From an uncultured Synergistales bacterium (GTDB lineage: Bacteria > Synergistota > Synergistia > Synergistales > Aminobacteriaceae): 43,571 nt of DNA. The stretch is taken from positions 1 to 43,571 of the forward strand of contig CAJOLN010000002.1 in assembly GCA_905235395.1 (NCBI GenBank), written 5' to 3'. Shown here in pieces: positions 1,768 through 12,960 of the stretch. Position 1 is the stretch's first letter, and the number at the start of each line of letters is the position of its first letter. Both the position numbers and the translations under genes were made by a program. Below the pieces are notes generated by a model that was not told the DNA's origin, searched no databases, and worked only from the letters and a program-made list of their open reading frames with translations.

Positions 1768-1843
<76 letters not shown>

Positions 1844-1946
1844 TTCAAATCAAATCATATTTTTAAAATAATAAATTTTATCATTAGGTATCTTAGCATC
1901 TTTGTGTTATCATTGCCGAAATTAATTTTTACGAGGTGATTCACTT

Positions 1947-2474
1947 ATGAAGCGTTCAAATTTATTCAAGGTATTATGCGCAGTCATCGCAATAATGATA
2001 TTCGCAAGCATGGCCTCCTCTGCTTCCAGAAGAAGGAGAACTCCTCCCAAACCTCAGCCAGTAAGAGACACACTTACATTTGAAGGCGATCTCATTCTGC
2101 TCGTAGGCGACGAAACAATACGCGTGAGGAAAAGCGAAACCATCTCTATGCCTTCGGAAATACGAATCGAAACTCAGGATGATCATCCTTCAGTCATTGC
2201 TCAGATATTAGTGGATGAAGGTTACACAAGACAGAATGCAAGCGTGTCTGTCAGAGTATCGAGAAAAACGAATTCATTCAAAGTCAGCGGAAGAAGAGTT
2301 GAGGGTGTCTATGAGATACGCAGGGTCAGAGGAGAGAGACGGCTTGAAGCACTCAGAGGCAGAACGATACCGGCAAAAACAGGAGATTATTACATCAAAC
2401 TGTCCAACAAAAGAGAAGACAGATCTGAAGATGCAACTGTTCTTCGTTATGTGAAAATTCGTGTACGTGATTGA
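1947..2474 (+). CDS. Secreted protein of unknown function
   Basis: N-terminal signal peptide (MKRSNLFKVLCAVIAIMIFASMASSAS); SD ACGAGGTGATT upstream; no family recognised. Confidence 0.75.
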   Translation: MKRSNLFKVLCAVIAIMIFASMASSASRRRRTPPKPQPVRDTLTFEGDLILLVGDETIRVRKSETISMPSEIRIETQDDHPSVIAQILVDEGYTRQNASVSVRVSRKTNSFKVSGRRVEGVYEIRRVRGERRLEALRGRTIPAKTGDYYIKLSNKREDRSEDATVLRYVKIRVRD

Positions 2475-2495
2475 AGACACATTCGCAAAGTCAGA

Positions 2496-2528
2496 GGCAG
2501 TTCCGAAAAAACGGAGCTGTCTTTTTTT
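2496..2528 (+). terminator. Rho-independent terminator
   Basis: GGCAGTTCCG-AAAAAA-CGGAGCTGTC followed by TTTTTTT. Confidence 0.85.
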
Positions 2529-2548
2529 ATGAGCTGATTGAATCTAAA

Positions 2549-2577
2549 TTGACAAAAAATTTTCACAGTGTTATAAA
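2549..2577 (+). promoter_or_regulatory. Sigma70-type promoter upstream of cstA-like gene
   Basis: TTGACA, 17 nt spacer, TATAAA. Confidence 0.7.
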
Positions 2578-2615
2578 ATTTTGAATTTATTAACACGAAA
2601 GAAGGAAAATTTTTC

Positions 2616-4283
2616 ATGAATGGTTTAACTCTCGTAGCCATTGCCATAGTCGTATTGTTACTCGCATACATTCTCTATGGAAAATGGCTCGTTAAGACTT
2701 GGGGAATCGATGAGACTGCTAAAACTCCTGCTTACAGATTCGAGGACGGACAAGATTATGTACCCGCATCACGCTTCACAGTTTTCTCACATCAATTCAA
2801 TTCAATCACAGGTGCAGGCCCGGTTACAGGCCCGATTATCGCCGTGATGTTCGGATGGCTTCCCGCGTTCTTATGGCTCTTAGTTGGAGGCGTATTCTTC
2901 GGTGCGGTTCAGGATTTCACAGCTCTGTATGCTTCTGTAAAGAATGAAGGCAAATCTATGGGATTGATTATTGAACGCTATATCGGCAGGACAGGAAGAA
3001 AATTATTTTTGTTATTCTGCTGGCTGTTCACATTGTTAGTCATTGCTGCCTTCGCTGACATTCTCGCAGGAACGTTCAACGGCTTCACAAAAGACGGCGG
3101 TCAGAATGTGCCCGGTGCATCAGCCGCATCAATCTCAATGATATATATATTCGTAGCAATGATTTTCGGAGTGTTCATGAAGTTCTCAAAGTCAGGTGAA
3201 CTCTCAAAATTCATTGTAGGTGTCGTTCTCGTCATCGCAATGTTATGGGCAGGCATAGCTAATCCGTTATATTATGACGCTCAGACATGGCGGTATATCG
3301 TTTTCGGATATTGCTTCATCGCTTCCGTTCTTCCTATGTGGTTACTCAAACAGCCCCGTGATTATCTCAGCGTGTTTCTTCTTCTCGGAATGATTTTAGG
3401 AGGAGCAATCGGAATCATCGTAGCTAATCCGACAATAGAGGCACCAATGTTCGTAGGCTGGACAGTGAAAAATCAGCCATTGTTCCCCATGCTCTTCATA
3501 ACAATTGCATGCGGTGCTGTATCAGGATTTCACAGTCTCGTATCTTCAGGTACATCTTCTAAATCAATTGCTAATGAACGTGATATGCTCACTGTAGGTT
3601 ACGGTGCAATGATAGTTGAAACTTTGCTCGGTGTTGTTGCTCTGGTCATTGCATGTTCAGCAGTAAAAGGCGGAGGTCTTCCTACAGGTAACCCGTTTCA
3701 GATATTCGGAAGTGCTGTAGGTGAATTCTTCACTATGTTCGGTCTTCCTGCTCACGTTTCTTCATGCGTGATCATGATGTGCGTTTCTGCTCTCGCTATG
3801 ACTACCATTGATGCAGTCACACGAATCGGCAGAATGTCTCTTCAGGAATTTTTCTCACCTGCTGAAGGCGGCGATAAAGGATTCATTGAGACTGTCGTTT
3901 CCACAGTAATCACTTTAGCTTTCGCATATACTTTGTGCCTCGCTGGTTACGCAAATATATGGCCTCTCTTCGGTGCGGCAAATCAACTTCTTTCTGCTCT
4001 GGTACTCACTGCTCTTTCTGTCTTCCTGAGAGTTACTGGCAGAAAAGGCTGGATGCTTTATGTGCCAATGACATTTATGTTCATCGTCACTATGTCAGCA
4101 TTAGCTATCAGTGTCTATAACATCATTGAGAAGGTAAACGCAGGAAATTTCGTTCCTATGGTTGACGGTATGCAGCTCGTTATTGCATTGGCTTTGATGA
4201 CACTCGCAGTACTTGTTGTATATCATTGCTGGAAAGAATTAATCTCACCAAGAGTTGATAAGAATATAGCAGCAGCTCATTAA
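2616..4283 (+). CDS. cstA: Carbon starvation protein CstA-family peptide/pyruvate transporter
   Basis: YGKWLVKTWGID...DYVPASRFTVFSHQFNSITGAGPVTGPIIAVMFGWLPAFLWLLVGGVFFGAVQDF and other CstA hallmarks; multiple TM helices. Confidence 0.93.
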   Translation: MNGLTLVAIAIVVLLLAYILYGKWLVKTWGIDETAKTPAYRFEDGQDYVPASRFTVFSHQFNSITGAGPVTGPIIAVMFGWLPAFLWLLVGGVFFGAVQDFTALYASVKNEGKSMGLIIERYIGRTGRKLFLLFCWLFTLLVIAAFADILAGTFNGFTKDGGQNVPGASAASISMIYIFVAMIFGVFMKFSKSGELSKFIVGVVLVIAMLWAGIANPLYYDAQTWRYIVFGYCFIASVLPMWLLKQPRDYLSVFLLLGMILGGAIGIIVANPTIEAPMFVGWTVKNQPLFPMLFITIACGAVSGFHSLVSSGTSSKSIANERDMLTVGYGAMIVETLLGVVALVIACSAVKGGGLPTGNPFQIFGSAVGEFFTMFGLPAHVSSCVIMMCVSALAMTTIDAVTRIGRMSLQEFFSPAEGGDKGFIETVVSTVITLAFAYTLCLAGYANIWPLFGAANQLLSALVLTALSVFLRVTGRKGWMLYVPMTFMFIVTMSALAISVYNIIEKVNAGNFVPMVDGMQLVIALALMTLAVLVVYHCWKELISPRVDKNIAAAH

Positions 4284-4295
4284 AAAATGTTACAA

Positions 4296-4330
4296 TCCCT
4301 CTCATTAAAATGGGAGGGAATTTTTTTTTG
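4296..4330 (+). terminator. Rho-independent terminator
   Basis: TCCCTCTCA / TGGGAGGGA stem followed by a long T run. Confidence 0.8.
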
Positions 4331-4332
4331 TC

Positions 4333-5187
4333 ATGAAACGCATATTAATCACAGGAATTAACAGCTACACAGGAAACGCATTGAAAAAATATTTATCACA
4401 ATGGCCGAATGAATATGAAACACGAACAATAAGCCTTAAAGGTGAATCATGGAAGTCTGAAAATTTTTCAGGATTCGATTCTGTATTTCACGTTGCAGGG
4501 ATTGCACACGACAGCACAAAAGGTTCTGATAAAGAAGCATATTACGCAGTGAACTCACAGTTAGCATATGACACTGCACGCAAGGCCATGAATGACGGTG
4601 TGAGGCAATTCATATTCATGAGTTCATCTATCGTCTACGGGAAGCATTCAGGGATTATAACTCGTGATACGCAGGTTAATCCTTCAGGTTATTACGGTGA
4701 AAGCAAAATTAAAGCTGAGGATATGTTACGTTCAATTGAAAGTGAAAGTTTCAGAGTATGCATAATGAGATGTCCAATGATTTACGGAAGAAACTGCAAA
4801 GGGAATTATGTCATGCTCTCGAAAATTGCACAGAGACTTCCCGCATTCCCTTACGTAAAAAATTTTCGCTCTATGCTTTACGTCAAGAACATGGCCGAAT
4901 TCGTGAGACTCATGATTGATGATAATGCACATGGATTATTCTGGCCTCAGAACGGAATCTACTCTAACACTTCTATGCTCGTGAAAATGATTGCTGATGT
5001 TCATAATCACAGAATAAAATTGATTCGCAATCTTGAAAGTGCAGTGCGATTCATGTCGCGTTTCTCAAGGAAATTACGAAAGGCATTCGGAAATCTCGCA
5101 TATGATATGAGCATGAGTGATTACATTCATGACTATAGAGCCTACACGCTGAGTGAAAGCATAATTGAGACTGAACTATCTCTTTGA
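4333..5187 (+). CDS. NAD-dependent epimerase/dehydratase family (SDR) protein
   Basis: MKRILITGINSYTGNALKKYL (Rossmann start), FMSSSIVYG, YGESKIKAE (YxxxK). Confidence 0.85.
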   Translation: MKRILITGINSYTGNALKKYLSQWPNEYETRTISLKGESWKSENFSGFDSVFHVAGIAHDSTKGSDKEAYYAVNSQLAYDTARKAMNDGVRQFIFMSSSIVYGKHSGIITRDTQVNPSGYYGESKIKAEDMLRSIESESFRVCIMRCPMIYGRNCKGNYVMLSKIAQRLPAFPYVKNFRSMLYVKNMAEFVRLMIDDNAHGLFWPQNGIYSNTSMLVKMIADVHNHRIKLIRNLESAVRFMSRFSRKLRKAFGNLAYDMSMSDYIHDYRAYTLSESIIETELSL

Positions 5188-8649: not shown

Positions 8650-9159
8650 TCAGAATATCCTTAAGAGCTTGCCGAGAAATATTGCATCATCATTCGTGAA
8701 TATCCTGCAGAGATTTTTATTGTAGTACCTCAAATCATCTGTAACATCCCTCAGTATATTAAACTCTCCGCCGTGATAATCAGAAAGTTCATTTGCTTCA
8801 TCTTCAAGCAGATAATCACAGAATCCATTTGACTCTAGCATCTTATCCAGAAAAATTCTGCCGCTGATAGATCTCCTTTTCAGCACAAAAGGAAGTCCGA
8901 CCATGAAGTTCGGAGAGAAATCACGAATATCAAGATACTTCACCTGTTTTGAATTTCGTCCGATGCTGATAGTATTTTTCATGATTTCAGCATAGATAAT
9001 ACGCGCTTTCAAAATATCAAAGGCAATCTTAATTTTCGTATGACCATTCTCCTCAACGCATACGTACCATTGATATACTATCTGTTCTTTATCCCATAAA
9101 CCTTTTTTGCTGACATCAGAGACAAGATACTTCCGTTCATTTTCTTCAAGCGTAATCAT
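8650..9159 (-). CDS. Divergent CYTH-like (triphosphate-tunnel) domain protein
   Basis: ENERKYLV fits the CYTH ExExK signature; IVYQWYV resembles IxQxYL; C-terminal VTDDLRYYNKNLCR resembles the CYTH 'VT.D.RYSN..LA' end. Start MITLEEN overlaps the upstream stop as ATGA. Confidence 0.65.
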   Translation of the reverse strand: MITLEENERKYLVSDVSKKGLWDKEQIVYQWYVCVEENGHTKIKIAFDILKARIIYAEIMKNTISIGRNSKQVKYLDIRDFSPNFMVGLPFVLKRRSISGRIFLDKMLESNGFCDYLLEDEANELSDYHGGEFNILRDVTDDLRYYNKNLCRIFTNDDAIFLGKLLRIF

Positions 9160-10343
9160 GATTTCACTCCGCATTTAAACAATAGTTCATTTGCAATATC
9201 ATCGGCAGTAAAAGCATCTGAACCGTCAGCTGATTCATACATCACCGTAAATATGAAATCCGCATTTGATGAAAAATCTGCTTTCCTCTCTGGATGAAGG
9301 ACATTAATCTGAAGCTCGCATTTTCCTAATCTCTGTTCAAAAACTCTGCGGCATTCTTCCAAATCGTAATGCACAGGCACGCGCAAACGATTAAACACAT
9401 AATCCATTCTAAGAAACGGCGACATAACATAAAAGCTGTCAACATTCTGGTTAGTGATGAGGCTGATATACTCTTCAATAATGTCCCGGCCATAGATTCG
9501 CGAAATAAATTTCTTGTAGTAACTTCCTCCTCCTACACCAATATCCATTTCTATCACATCAATCCTAGAATCCGAAACTATAACATCTGCCTTAATGATA
9601 GTACTGATGATGCCGGAAGATTTTACGAAACGACCGAAAAAATTTCTGAGCCTGGACAAATCTTTCTCCTCATAGCGAAGTCTGCCGAGAAAGAATGTTC
9701 CGCGATACGATTCACGCAATATAGGAGCAAGAAGTTTAATCTGCCTGTCTTGGACAATCAACATACAGCGGTATTCTCTCCCTCTTTGAAGAACCTGAAT
9801 AACACTCTCTGAAGCAATCATCCGTTTATCAAGCATATCTGAGAGTTCCTGCTTGCTTACGATTTCAACTCCTTCACTGCCTCGTCCTGCAGAAGGTTTC
9901 ACTATAAACATTTTATCAGAACATTCTGCGCTTAATTCTTGAATAGATAAGTTTTTTGCTCTCCATGTTTTTATCTTTGATAAATTATACTTGCTGTACA
10001 TTCTCTGCTGCTGAATTTTATCCGAACCAACTATCAGAGATTCAGGTATGGCAGTATGTGTATGATAATAATTCGTTAACCTCTGAACTACATCAATCGC
10101 TCCTCCTCCAGCAAAAGAACCTACAGCTGTTATTCTGACCGCAAGAGAGTCAATCCACGCCGAAGCACCTTCAAAATCACGTGTATCAATTTCTGCTGTG
10201 TAATCACATAATGAAACTGCCTCTTCGGAATTTTTCCCCTTCCCGAATCCAATGACTTTATACCCGTGTGCCTTAAGTCTTTTTATGAATTCAAGCTGAC
10301 CGTAACCAATGCCGACTGAAATCACAAAATTTTTATTAATCAT
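9156..10343 (-). CDS. ATP-grasp domain protein (carboxylate-amine ligase-like)
   Basis: N-terminal pre-ATP-grasp fold (YGQLEFIKRLKAHGYKVIGFGKGKN), KMFIVKPSAGRGSEGVEIVS, VIEMDIGVGGGSYYKKFI. Start MINKNF overlaps the upstream stop as ATGA (track start 10358). Confidence 0.8.
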   Translation of the reverse strand: MINKNFVISVGIGYGQLEFIKRLKAHGYKVIGFGKGKNSEEAVSLCDYTAEIDTRDFEGASAWIDSLAVRITAVGSFAGGGAIDVVQRLTNYYHTHTAIPESLIVGSDKIQQQRMYSKYNLSKIKTWRAKNLSIQELSAECSDKMFIVKPSAGRGSEGVEIVSKQELSDMLDKRMIASESVIQVLQRGREYRCMLIVQDRQIKLLAPILRESYRGTFFLGRLRYEEKDLSRLRNFFGRFVKSSGIISTIIKADVIVSDSRIDVIEMDIGVGGGSYYKKFISRIYGRDIIEEYISLITNQNVDSFYVMSPFLRMDYVFNRLRVPVHYDLEECRRVFEQRLGKCELQINVLHPERKADFSSNADFIFTVMYESADGSDAFTADDIANELLFKCGVKS

Positions 10344-11461
10344 AGCATATTCTTCCATGCTTCCCTTTCTGCAAGATATATATCTGCTGTATCAGTGCGC
10401 TTGTATATATCTGAGCTGTATATTAAATCCAAATACTTTTCTGCAATTTCCCTGCCGCCTTTATGCCACACACAATTTTTGTCTTCAAGCAATGCTTCTC
10501 TGATTCCTCCGCTCCAGAAATATGCAGTCAGTTTCTCCGAATAATTTTCCGGCATTCGATTCATTATTCCGTAATCAGACAGAAACGCTTCGATAAAAGG
10601 TATCCCCGCATCAACGTAAAGCTGAGACGGTCCCCACATGCGAGGATTTGCCTCTATCATATAATAATTGCTGCCCTTCCTGCGCAGTTCGACCATTATG
10701 AACCCATAAAAACCTAAAGACCTGAACATACGCATATAATCATCGGATATTTTTTCGCGGTGTGTATCCCACGAGATTGCTGCAATGATTGATTTTCCGC
10801 CGGGCTGCTGAACAAGATTCCTCTGTGAGAACGATAAAGTCTTTCCATGTCTTGAAAGATAATACAGCAGATAAATACTCTCGCCGTCAACATACTCTTG
10901 AATGTCGAAATCAGAAGCGCTGTAATTCGGTAAAAATTCTTTGTGCTTGTCTTCATTATCAACAATTACGGGGATCAATCGTTTTCCTGACGATGAAACA
11001 TACGAAACAGGTTTTGCCGCATACATGAATTTATACGTATCAGATATTTTAACTATCTGCGGAACTTTAAATCCTTCGGCACGGCATAAGTCCCAGAAAG
11101 TATGCTTATCGGAAATTTTTTCGTAAATATCTTTGTCAGCAAGAGGGACTGTAACACCAAGCGATTCAATTTCTTCACGGTTATTGAGCAAAAATCTGTT
11201 CAGCCCTTCGCTGCTCGGTACAACCAGTGTAACATCACCGGCGGCCTCATCAGCAATCATCTTCATTGCTCCGTATAACTCCGGCTTGTAAAGTTCACGA
11301 TGCTTACGTATTAAGCATACATTCTTAACGTATAATGATCTCAAAACAGGGTCATCATCTCCACACGCCAATATCCTGACATCTTCAATGTGATTTTTCT
11401 CCAAAGCACGGAGCATAGCTACAACTGCACGCTGATTAAAACCAGAGAATACAATTATCAT
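10340..11461 (-). CDS. ATP-grasp domain protein (CarB-like ligase)
   Basis: DKHTFWDLCRAEGFKVPQIVKI, FDIQEYVDGESIYLLYYLS, GFIMVELRRKGSNYYMIEANPRMWGPSQLYVDAGIPF. Confidence 0.85.
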   Translation of the reverse strand: MIIVFSGFNQRAVVAMLRALEKNHIEDVRILACGDDDPVLRSLYVKNVCLIRKHRELYKPELYGAMKMIADEAAGDVTLVVPSSEGLNRFLLNNREEIESLGVTVPLADKDIYEKISDKHTFWDLCRAEGFKVPQIVKISDTYKFMYAAKPVSYVSSSGKRLIPVIVDNEDKHKEFLPNYSASDFDIQEYVDGESIYLLYYLSRHGKTLSFSQRNLVQQPGGKSIIAAISWDTHREKISDDYMRMFRSLGFYGFIMVELRRKGSNYYMIEANPRMWGPSQLYVDAGIPFIEAFLSDYGIMNRMPENYSEKLTAYFWSGGIREALLEDKNCVWHKGGREIAEKYLDLIYSSDIYKRTDTADIYLAEREAWKNML

Positions 11462-11842: not shown

Positions 11843-12595
11843 ATGGAGTGTTTGAAAATTTTAACCTCGTTCTTAATTGCAGTTTCGTTCATCTCAATAT
11901 TGCCAATATCAGTTCAGGAATGGAACTCTTGTAACCTTCGCTTCTTCTGCATTATGCTTCCCATTGCAGGAATATTATTTTCGCTCTCATGGTTTATTCT
12001 ATGGTTCACACTTTCACATCTCGTAATGCTCTCATGCAGTCTTCGGGGATTTATTATGTGCATATTCACACTCGCATTAACCGGCGGACTTCACACTGAT
12101 GGATTGATGGACACATGCGATGCAATATTCTCACATAAAGACCGTGAGACGCGTTTGAAAATTCTATCAGATACTCACGCAGGAAGTTTCGCAGTTATGG
12201 GCTGCATTATTATTCTCATGGCCAAGTCATTTCTTTTCGCTGAACTCTTAATGTCTCATACTGACATTCTCACACTCTCATTCATTCCGTCATATTCGCG
12301 GCTTGGAATGTCATTTATACTCGTTAATCTTCCATTCGCAAAGAATAACGGCCTTGCTGTAATGTTAGGTTCATCACGGAATAAGCACGATAACATTTCA
12401 ATTGTCATTATGCTTCTGGTATTCTCATTCTTCACTCATAAGATAATTCCCTTCATCATGATTATATTTGCGTTCCTTTGGGGTAAACTGTGCATGAAAA
12501 TCTTCGGAGGCATAACGGGTGATTTGCTCGGTGCATTCGTTGAGCTTTCTGAAGTCATTATGCTAATGGGACTGGTGATATTGAATTGCATCTGA
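11843..12595 (+). CDS. cobS: Adenosylcobinamide-GDP ribazoletransferase (cobalamin synthase)
   Basis: ALTGGLHTDGLMDTCDAIFSHKDRETRLKILSDTHAGSFAVMG is the CobS motif; C-terminal GGITGDLLGAFVELSE. ATG 11843 likely (track start 11816). Confidence 0.93.
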   Translation: MECLKILTSFLIAVSFISILPISVQEWNSCNLRFFCIMLPIAGILFSLSWFILWFTLSHLVMLSCSLRGFIMCIFTLALTGGLHTDGLMDTCDAIFSHKDRETRLKILSDTHAGSFAVMGCIIILMAKSFLFAELLMSHTDILTLSFIPSYSRLGMSFILVNLPFAKNNGLAVMLGSSRNKHDNISIVIMLLVFSFFTHKIIPFIMIIFAFLWGKLCMKIFGGITGDLLGAFVELSEVIMLMGLVILNCI

Positions 12596-12960
12596 TACTT
12601 GGAGGGCGTTACATGGGCAAGAGAGCCTATGCATTGAAGCTCTACGGACACTTTGATTATGAGTGCGATTTTGAAAGTGAAAACGATATAACAGCTTCAG
12701 GATTAATCACAAACATACATACAGGAATTAGAAAACTCATGCTCGAAAATATAAACCCTCGTGAGTTCTTCATGTCCAGAATAAATATTCTCAGGCAGTG
12801 CGTCATAATCGGTAATGATATTTCATGCGGCGTAATTCCCCTTGATGAGTTCTCCCGTAAATGGCGTGATGAGACCGGCAAGATATATCAGGAATTAGCG
12901 AGGGAAGCAGAGATTGTAGACAGGATATTTGCGGGGTTATCATTAAGGCTGAAAGGGTGA
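12586..12960 (+). CDS. cobU: Very short CobU-like protein (adenosylcobinamide kinase/guanylyltransferase-like)
   Basis: HLILGGRYMGKRAYA resembles the CobU P-loop; C-terminal CVIIGNDISCGVIPLDEFSRKWRDETGKIYQELAREAEIVDRIFAGLSLRLKG resembles the CobU C-terminus. TTG start overlapping cobS. Confidence 0.7.
   Translation: MHLILGGRYMGKRAYALKLYGHFDYECDFESENDITASGLITNIHTGIRKLMLENINPREFFMSRINILRQCVIIGNDISCGVIPLDEFSRKWRDETGKIYQELAREAEIVDRIFAGLSLRLKG

Follow-up and report, generated by a model that had tools for sequence, protein, structure and literature searches.

An operon of two ATP-grasp ligases and a CYTH-like protein in a Synergistales bacterium, with probable links to the decoration of amino sugars

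The operon and its surroundings

The stretch of DNA analysed here (the window) comprises 43,571 nucleotides from an uncultured Synergistales bacterium, referred to below as the host, and carries three tightly packed genes on its minus strand that encode two ligases of the ATP-grasp superfamily, AG1 and AG2, and a small CYTH/TTM-like protein:

11461 to 10340, minus strand: AG1, ATP-grasp ligase, 373 aa
10343 to 9156, minus strand: AG2, second ATP-grasp ligase, 395 aa
9159 to 8650, minus strand: CYTH/TTM-like protein, 169 aa
10340..10343, minus strand: ATGA stop/start overlap of AG1 and AG2, read in the sequence
9156..9159, minus strand: ATGA stop/start overlap of AG2 and the CYTH-like gene, read in the sequence

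An earlier reading of this DNA from its letters only (the sequence-only reading) had described three minus-strand genes joined by two ATGA overlaps, and the sequence indeed confirms this arrangement. Mechanical first-ATG calls place the starts of AG2 and the CYTH-like gene slightly more upstream (at 10358 and 9174, respectively), and the starts of their homologues (AG2 of loci L034 and L039, the CYTH-like protein of L027) align with the ATGA starts. The trio is flanked by a convergent gene for an iron-sulphur aldo/keto reductase on one side and a divergent cobS on the other, with no sugar-aminotransferase genes beside it in the window and no flagellin recognised among the window's ORFs. A 124-aa CobU-like ORF (12586-12960) overlaps cobS; its match to the Pfam model is confined to the model's C-terminal third (positions 115-168), yet its N-terminus keeps a P-loop-like GGRYMGKR. 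Searches of plasmids with AG1, AG2 and the CYTH-like protein gave no match. A role of the trio in defence was rejected after PADLOC returned no match, as was a phage origin after the PHROG search returned no meaningful one.

A widespread ligase family and its rare partner

Both ligases hold up as ATP-grasp proteins, with the Pfam model ATP-grasp_3 just under its cut-off, and both are weakly similar to PylC while being only about 21% identical to each other. Among the NCBIfam models, AG1 matches those of carbamoyl phosphate synthase-like proteins (E 1e-10) and PylC (2.5e-7), all below the curated cut-offs. It has the signature residues of the superfamily: the ATP-binding lysine K150 is found in 42 of 43 aligned rows, the remaining one being a gap, and E258, E270, N272 and R274, which form the Mg-binding Glu/Glu/Asn and the following Arg, are invariant in all 43.

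The AG1 of the window is 37-40% identical to those of loci L020 and L021, and of 188 genomes searched in the phylum, just two have relatives at 38-40% identity. A profile scan of GTDB genomes returned 43 loci, among them loci of Bacillota, Bacteroidota, Pseudomonadota and Chloroflexota. Adding the window and two loci from Synergistota, and removing two duplicates, gives 44 distinct AG1 loci. In 39 of them, a SAM-dependent methyltransferase gene lies next to AG1 or is fused to it (38 found automatically, 33 adjacent and 5 fused, plus L053, whose overlapping frame was assigned by eye), and a sugar aminotransferase of the DesI/VioA type is encoded within 5 kb of AG1 in 33 of the 44. Among them are clusters of the O-antigen type and clusters for flagellin glycans, where RmlA/RmlB, a flippase and glycosyltransferases are common, and 11 of the 44 contain a flagellin gene. 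The family to which AG1 belongs is widely distributed and would serve to decorate sugar nucleotides; its genes are associated with those of DesI/VioA-like aminotransferases and methyltransferases, with O-antigen genes and with flagellins. We found no name for this module of AG1, methyltransferase and aminotransferase, which spans many phyla, in the literature searched.

The AG1-methyltransferase fusions are single ORFs of 603 to 643 aa (L023, L025, L033, L050 and L052), and at L051 (5441-8065) a GT1 glycosyltransferase and AG1 are joined in an 875-aa ORF, with NeuB/NeuC-like genes alongside. Across all loci, the divergence of AG1 shows no overall correlation with that of the aminotransferase (Spearman 0.08), so their link rests on gene neighbourhood and nearest partners and not on global co-evolution. 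In the AG1 tree, the protein of the window groups with those of L022, L023 and L025, and two of these neighbours, L022 and L025, carry the aminotransferases closest to the one found in the host.

AG2 matches ATP-grasp_3 with an E-value of 4e-4 (its homologues with 1e-8) and is known from just four loci, namely the window, L027 of Anaerovirgula multivorans, L034 of Halomonas and L039 of Litchfieldella, two of which come from one family. It is 36-42% identical to its three homologues, and the ATP-binding Lys-Pro (K149, P150), the Gly/Ser loop (G153, R154, G155, S156) and the metal-binding acids D253, E265 and D267 are invariant in all four proteins; the Asn of the metal site is replaced by Asp, and the superfamily residues are otherwise present. 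A match of residues 219-304 (of the frame at 9159-10343, minus strand) to phosphoethanolamine methyltransferases (E 3e-4) is driven by the SAM-motif-like IEMDIGVGGG and was rejected as a chance likeness, because this segment corresponds, in an alignment of the two ligases, to the metal-binding IEANPR of AG1.

Two weak matches to the AG2 profile (E about 4e-14) were seen at L068 and L069 in the Clostridia genomes G312 and G972. These apart, no further AG2 turned up in partly overlapping sets of genomes: 29 with AG1, 391 from the class of Anaerovirgula, 247 from its order and 181 from the Halomonas family. No second full AG2 was present in 188 genomes of the host's phylum, and the profile gave no match in viral contigs. 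A scan of genome contigs with the single AG2 protein also gave no match, a weak negative given that the collection does contain AG2 homologues.

The four AG2 loci are all among the five that lack an AG1-type methyltransferase (Fisher p = 3.7e-5 over 44 loci), and the part of the host genome that was read, 1.64 Mb or 83%, yielded no such methyltransferase. On the AG1 tree, the association with AG2 requires at least three gains or losses, which means that the swap between methyltransferase and AG2 recurred or that AG2 was lost repeatedly. At L027, AG1 and AG2 are fused in one ORF. A CYTH-like gene accompanies AG2 at two of its four loci, the window and Anaerovirgula; the two Halomonadaceae loci have no CYTH-like gene and encode a 220-aa protein upstream of AG2 (L034:4750-5412 and L039:4843-5502) that was typed only by its NTase-like GNDID motif and by a weak resemblance to LicD in Pfam.

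The CYTH-like protein

Searched by itself, the third protein has no Pfam or PDB match and does not reach the gathering score of PF01928, a model that found matches in other genomes but none in the host when applied genome-wide. A profile built from 11 short CYTH proteins nevertheless gives it 15.9 bits, which ranks first among 2280 ORFs and was reached by none of 2000 shuffles, with both ends of the match collinear with the profile. It is 40% identical to the homologue of L027, and none of the other 100 relatives searched has it. A comparison of profiles gave 27.2, a score that 100 column shuffles did not approach beyond 19.0.

The residues point the same way. Twelve positions of NeuTTM (PDB 3TYP/2FBL) are invariant in the alignment (E4, E6, K8, Q26, K52, K85, R87, D101, E114, E116, Y142 and N144), and nine of them (E4, E6, K8, K52, K85, R87, D101, E114 and E116) are retained in both the window and the L027 proteins. 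These include the N-terminal ExExK, shared unchanged with NeuTTM and further short CYTH proteins, the last-strand ExE (E114/E116) and the tunnel residues K52, K85 and R87. Compared to the short triphosphatases of this type (PDB 2FBL, 3TYP), the window protein has in common ExExK, ExE, the conserved Lys/Arg and a C-terminal YxN, but it is only 20-21% identical, has KxK for the RxR of tripolyphosphatases, has largely lost the middle acidic pair and is encoded with glycan-type ligases. These sequence comparisons support its assignment as a CYTH/TTM-like protein that keeps the metal-binding and most of the basic tunnel residues of triphosphatases.

It could instead be a small protein, degenerate or unrelated to CYTH enzymes, whose role is that of a scaffold for the ligases. 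Such a view would account for the missing sequence matches, the KxK motif, the AlphaFold models of low confidence (pLDDT 39 and 31 for the protein alone and with one homologue), which are uninformative as to the eight-stranded tunnel fold, and the score of the L027 homologue, which by itself does not rise above shuffles. We consider it very unlikely because of the collinear match at both ends, the comparison of profiles and the nine NeuTTM residues kept in both homologues.

Two specific activities were rejected. Class IV adenylyl cyclases carry HFxxxxExExK and an Ala as the second residue of the ExE pair (PMC8233210), whereas the window protein has no HF and keeps the second Glu; the W/YxRxR signature of thiamine triphosphatases (PMC8233210) is replaced by TxKxK. 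The residue motifs favour a phosphatase site of the TTM type over a cyclase.

A candidate pathway for decorated amino sugars

At the Anaerovirgula locus, the counterparts of the trio lie beside genes of sugar enzymes: the AG1-AG2 fusion is followed by the CYTH-like gene, an aminotransferase, RmlA and RmlB, with a flagellin gene upstream. The host encodes equivalent enzymes away from the trio. A DesI/VioA-like aminotransferase on contig C21, whose best NCBIfam match is DesI below its cut-off, is 71%, 67% and 62% identical to those of L025, L022 and L027, respectively, while the other three full-length aminotransferases of the host reach at most 32-33% identity to any AG1-linked one. Its gene adjoins that of a GT56-family glycosyltransferase and lies near a GT2-family one. 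Contig C30 encodes RmlA (59% identity) and RmlB (54% identity), and the host genome also has several flagellin ORFs.

We propose that the trio catalyses the last steps toward a dTDP-linked 4-amino-4,6-dideoxyhexose that bears a small acyl or peptidyl group and is destined for a flagellar or surface glycan, with AG1 acting before AG2, and give this reading a probability of roughly 0.58. RmlA, RmlB and the aminotransferase would make dTDP-4-amino-4,6-dideoxyhexose, and AG1 would activate a carboxylate as acyl phosphate and join it to the 4-amine of the sugar. At most loci of the family, the methyltransferase would then modify the AG1 product; here AG2 would take its place and add a second carboxylate or amino acid, before a glycosyltransferase would transfer the decorated sugar to the flagellar or surface glycan. 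The weakest step is that of the CYTH-like protein, whose site points to a metal-bound triphosphate and which may act as a metal-dependent, triphosphate-binding partner, probably by hydrolysing a triphosphate or transferring from it. The NTase-like protein at the other AG2 loci weakly suggests a nucleotide- or phosphate-transfer role for it. A bolder version, in which the CYTH-like protein was recruited into glycan decoration and would act with the two ligases on an aminoacyl amino sugar by adding or processing a phosphorylated group, with the NTase-like protein of Halomonas and Litchfieldella as an unrelated functional stand-in, seems to us unlikely.

The two ligases might also work in parallel, each acylating its own amino group, either within one diamino sugar or on two separate sugars. 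Their low mutual identity agrees with this idea, and so does L039, where AG1 and AG2 lie beside NeuB/NeuC-like genes of nonulosonic acid synthesis. We nonetheless regard it as unlikely, since the AG1-AG2 fusion and the replacement of the methyltransferase by AG2 fit successive steps on one product better. Free dipeptides are frequent products of ATP-grasp families, and the trio, which stands alone in the window and whose ligases weakly resemble PylC, could make a free, dipeptide-like or amidated small molecule independently of any glycan, with the CYTH-like protein hydrolysing a by-product or sensing a triphosphate. The presence of AG1 relatives in glycan clusters with aminotransferases, and the position of the Anaerovirgula genes directly before the aminotransferase, RmlA and RmlB, speak against this explanation, which we consider improbable.

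The sequence-only reading had inferred a dedicated pathway that ligates small carboxylates or amino acids and senses or processes a triphosphate. That such a pathway is self-contained is not borne out by the sugar-decoration clusters around AG1 or by the remaining sugar enzymes encoded elsewhere in the host. Its list of parts and their co-occurrence fared better: profiles and motif residues support two ATP-grasp ligases and a CYTH-type protein with most of the tunnel residues present, and the trio recurs in another phylum, where the Anaerovirgula fusion and its CYTH homologue indicate that the three proteins act together. What it had missed was the glycan context.

Peptidylated amino sugars have precedent in the type B flagellin of C. 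difficile, where Fuc3N bears the peptide taurinyl-Ala-Gly; when an ATP-grasp gene is lost, the terminal peptidyl-sugar is missing (PMC5207245, PMC5207246). The responsible locus (CDR20291_0241-0247) for this sulfonated peptidylamido-glycan resembles the present system in gene content, with an FdtB-like sugar aminotransferase and an ATP-grasp ligase (PMC5207245, PMC5207246); this pairing recurs here, with the aminotransferase on another contig in the host and adjacent at L027. The C. difficile genes follow fliC just as the Anaerovirgula genes lie downstream of a flagellin gene, unlike the trio of the window. Furthermore, C. difficile has one ATP-grasp ligase, a FemAB-like acyltransferase and an alanine-dehydrogenase-like gene where the trio has two ATP-grasp ligases and a CYTH-like gene, and its sugar is a 3-amino sugar in contrast to the 4-amino sugar predicted for the trio. 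The sfmABCDE operon for the flagellin glycan of Shewanella oneidensis combines methyltransferase and ATP-grasp genes like the AG1 loci (PMC3765264), but it has a nonulosonic-acid-like unit of 274 Da, a TPP-binding enzyme and a reductase, and neither a second ATP-grasp nor a CYTH gene. The AG1-methyltransferase-aminotransferase module itself has the same AG1 and aminotransferase families and differs in that the window has AG2 and the CYTH-like gene in place of the methyltransferase.

Amino sugars decorated with amino acids or peptides are already known, with the C. difficile type B glycan as proof that peptidylated sugars exist and the AG1 family as candidate enzymes; what is new is an AG1 module that has two alternative partners, together with the CYTH-like gene. 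The apparently unnamed family is tied to the decoration of amino sugars, in clusters for O-antigen and flagellin glycans of many phyla, and the modular swap of a methyltransferase for a second ligase predicts capped versus extended acyl groups. The operon also places a CYTH-like protein in a putative glycan pathway; the literature searched contained no report combining ATP-grasp with "CYTH domain", and one paper mentions the two words separately, in the context of phages.

Among the flagellin-like ORFs of the host, two frames are exceptionally long from stop to stop, one of ca. 965 codons on contig C40 (L166:5288-8182, minus strand) and one of ca. 1186 codons on contig C101 (L247:2080-5637, plus strand), and L166 contains a second very long one (1815-4610). 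Judged from their similarity, these frames may encode giant flagellins.
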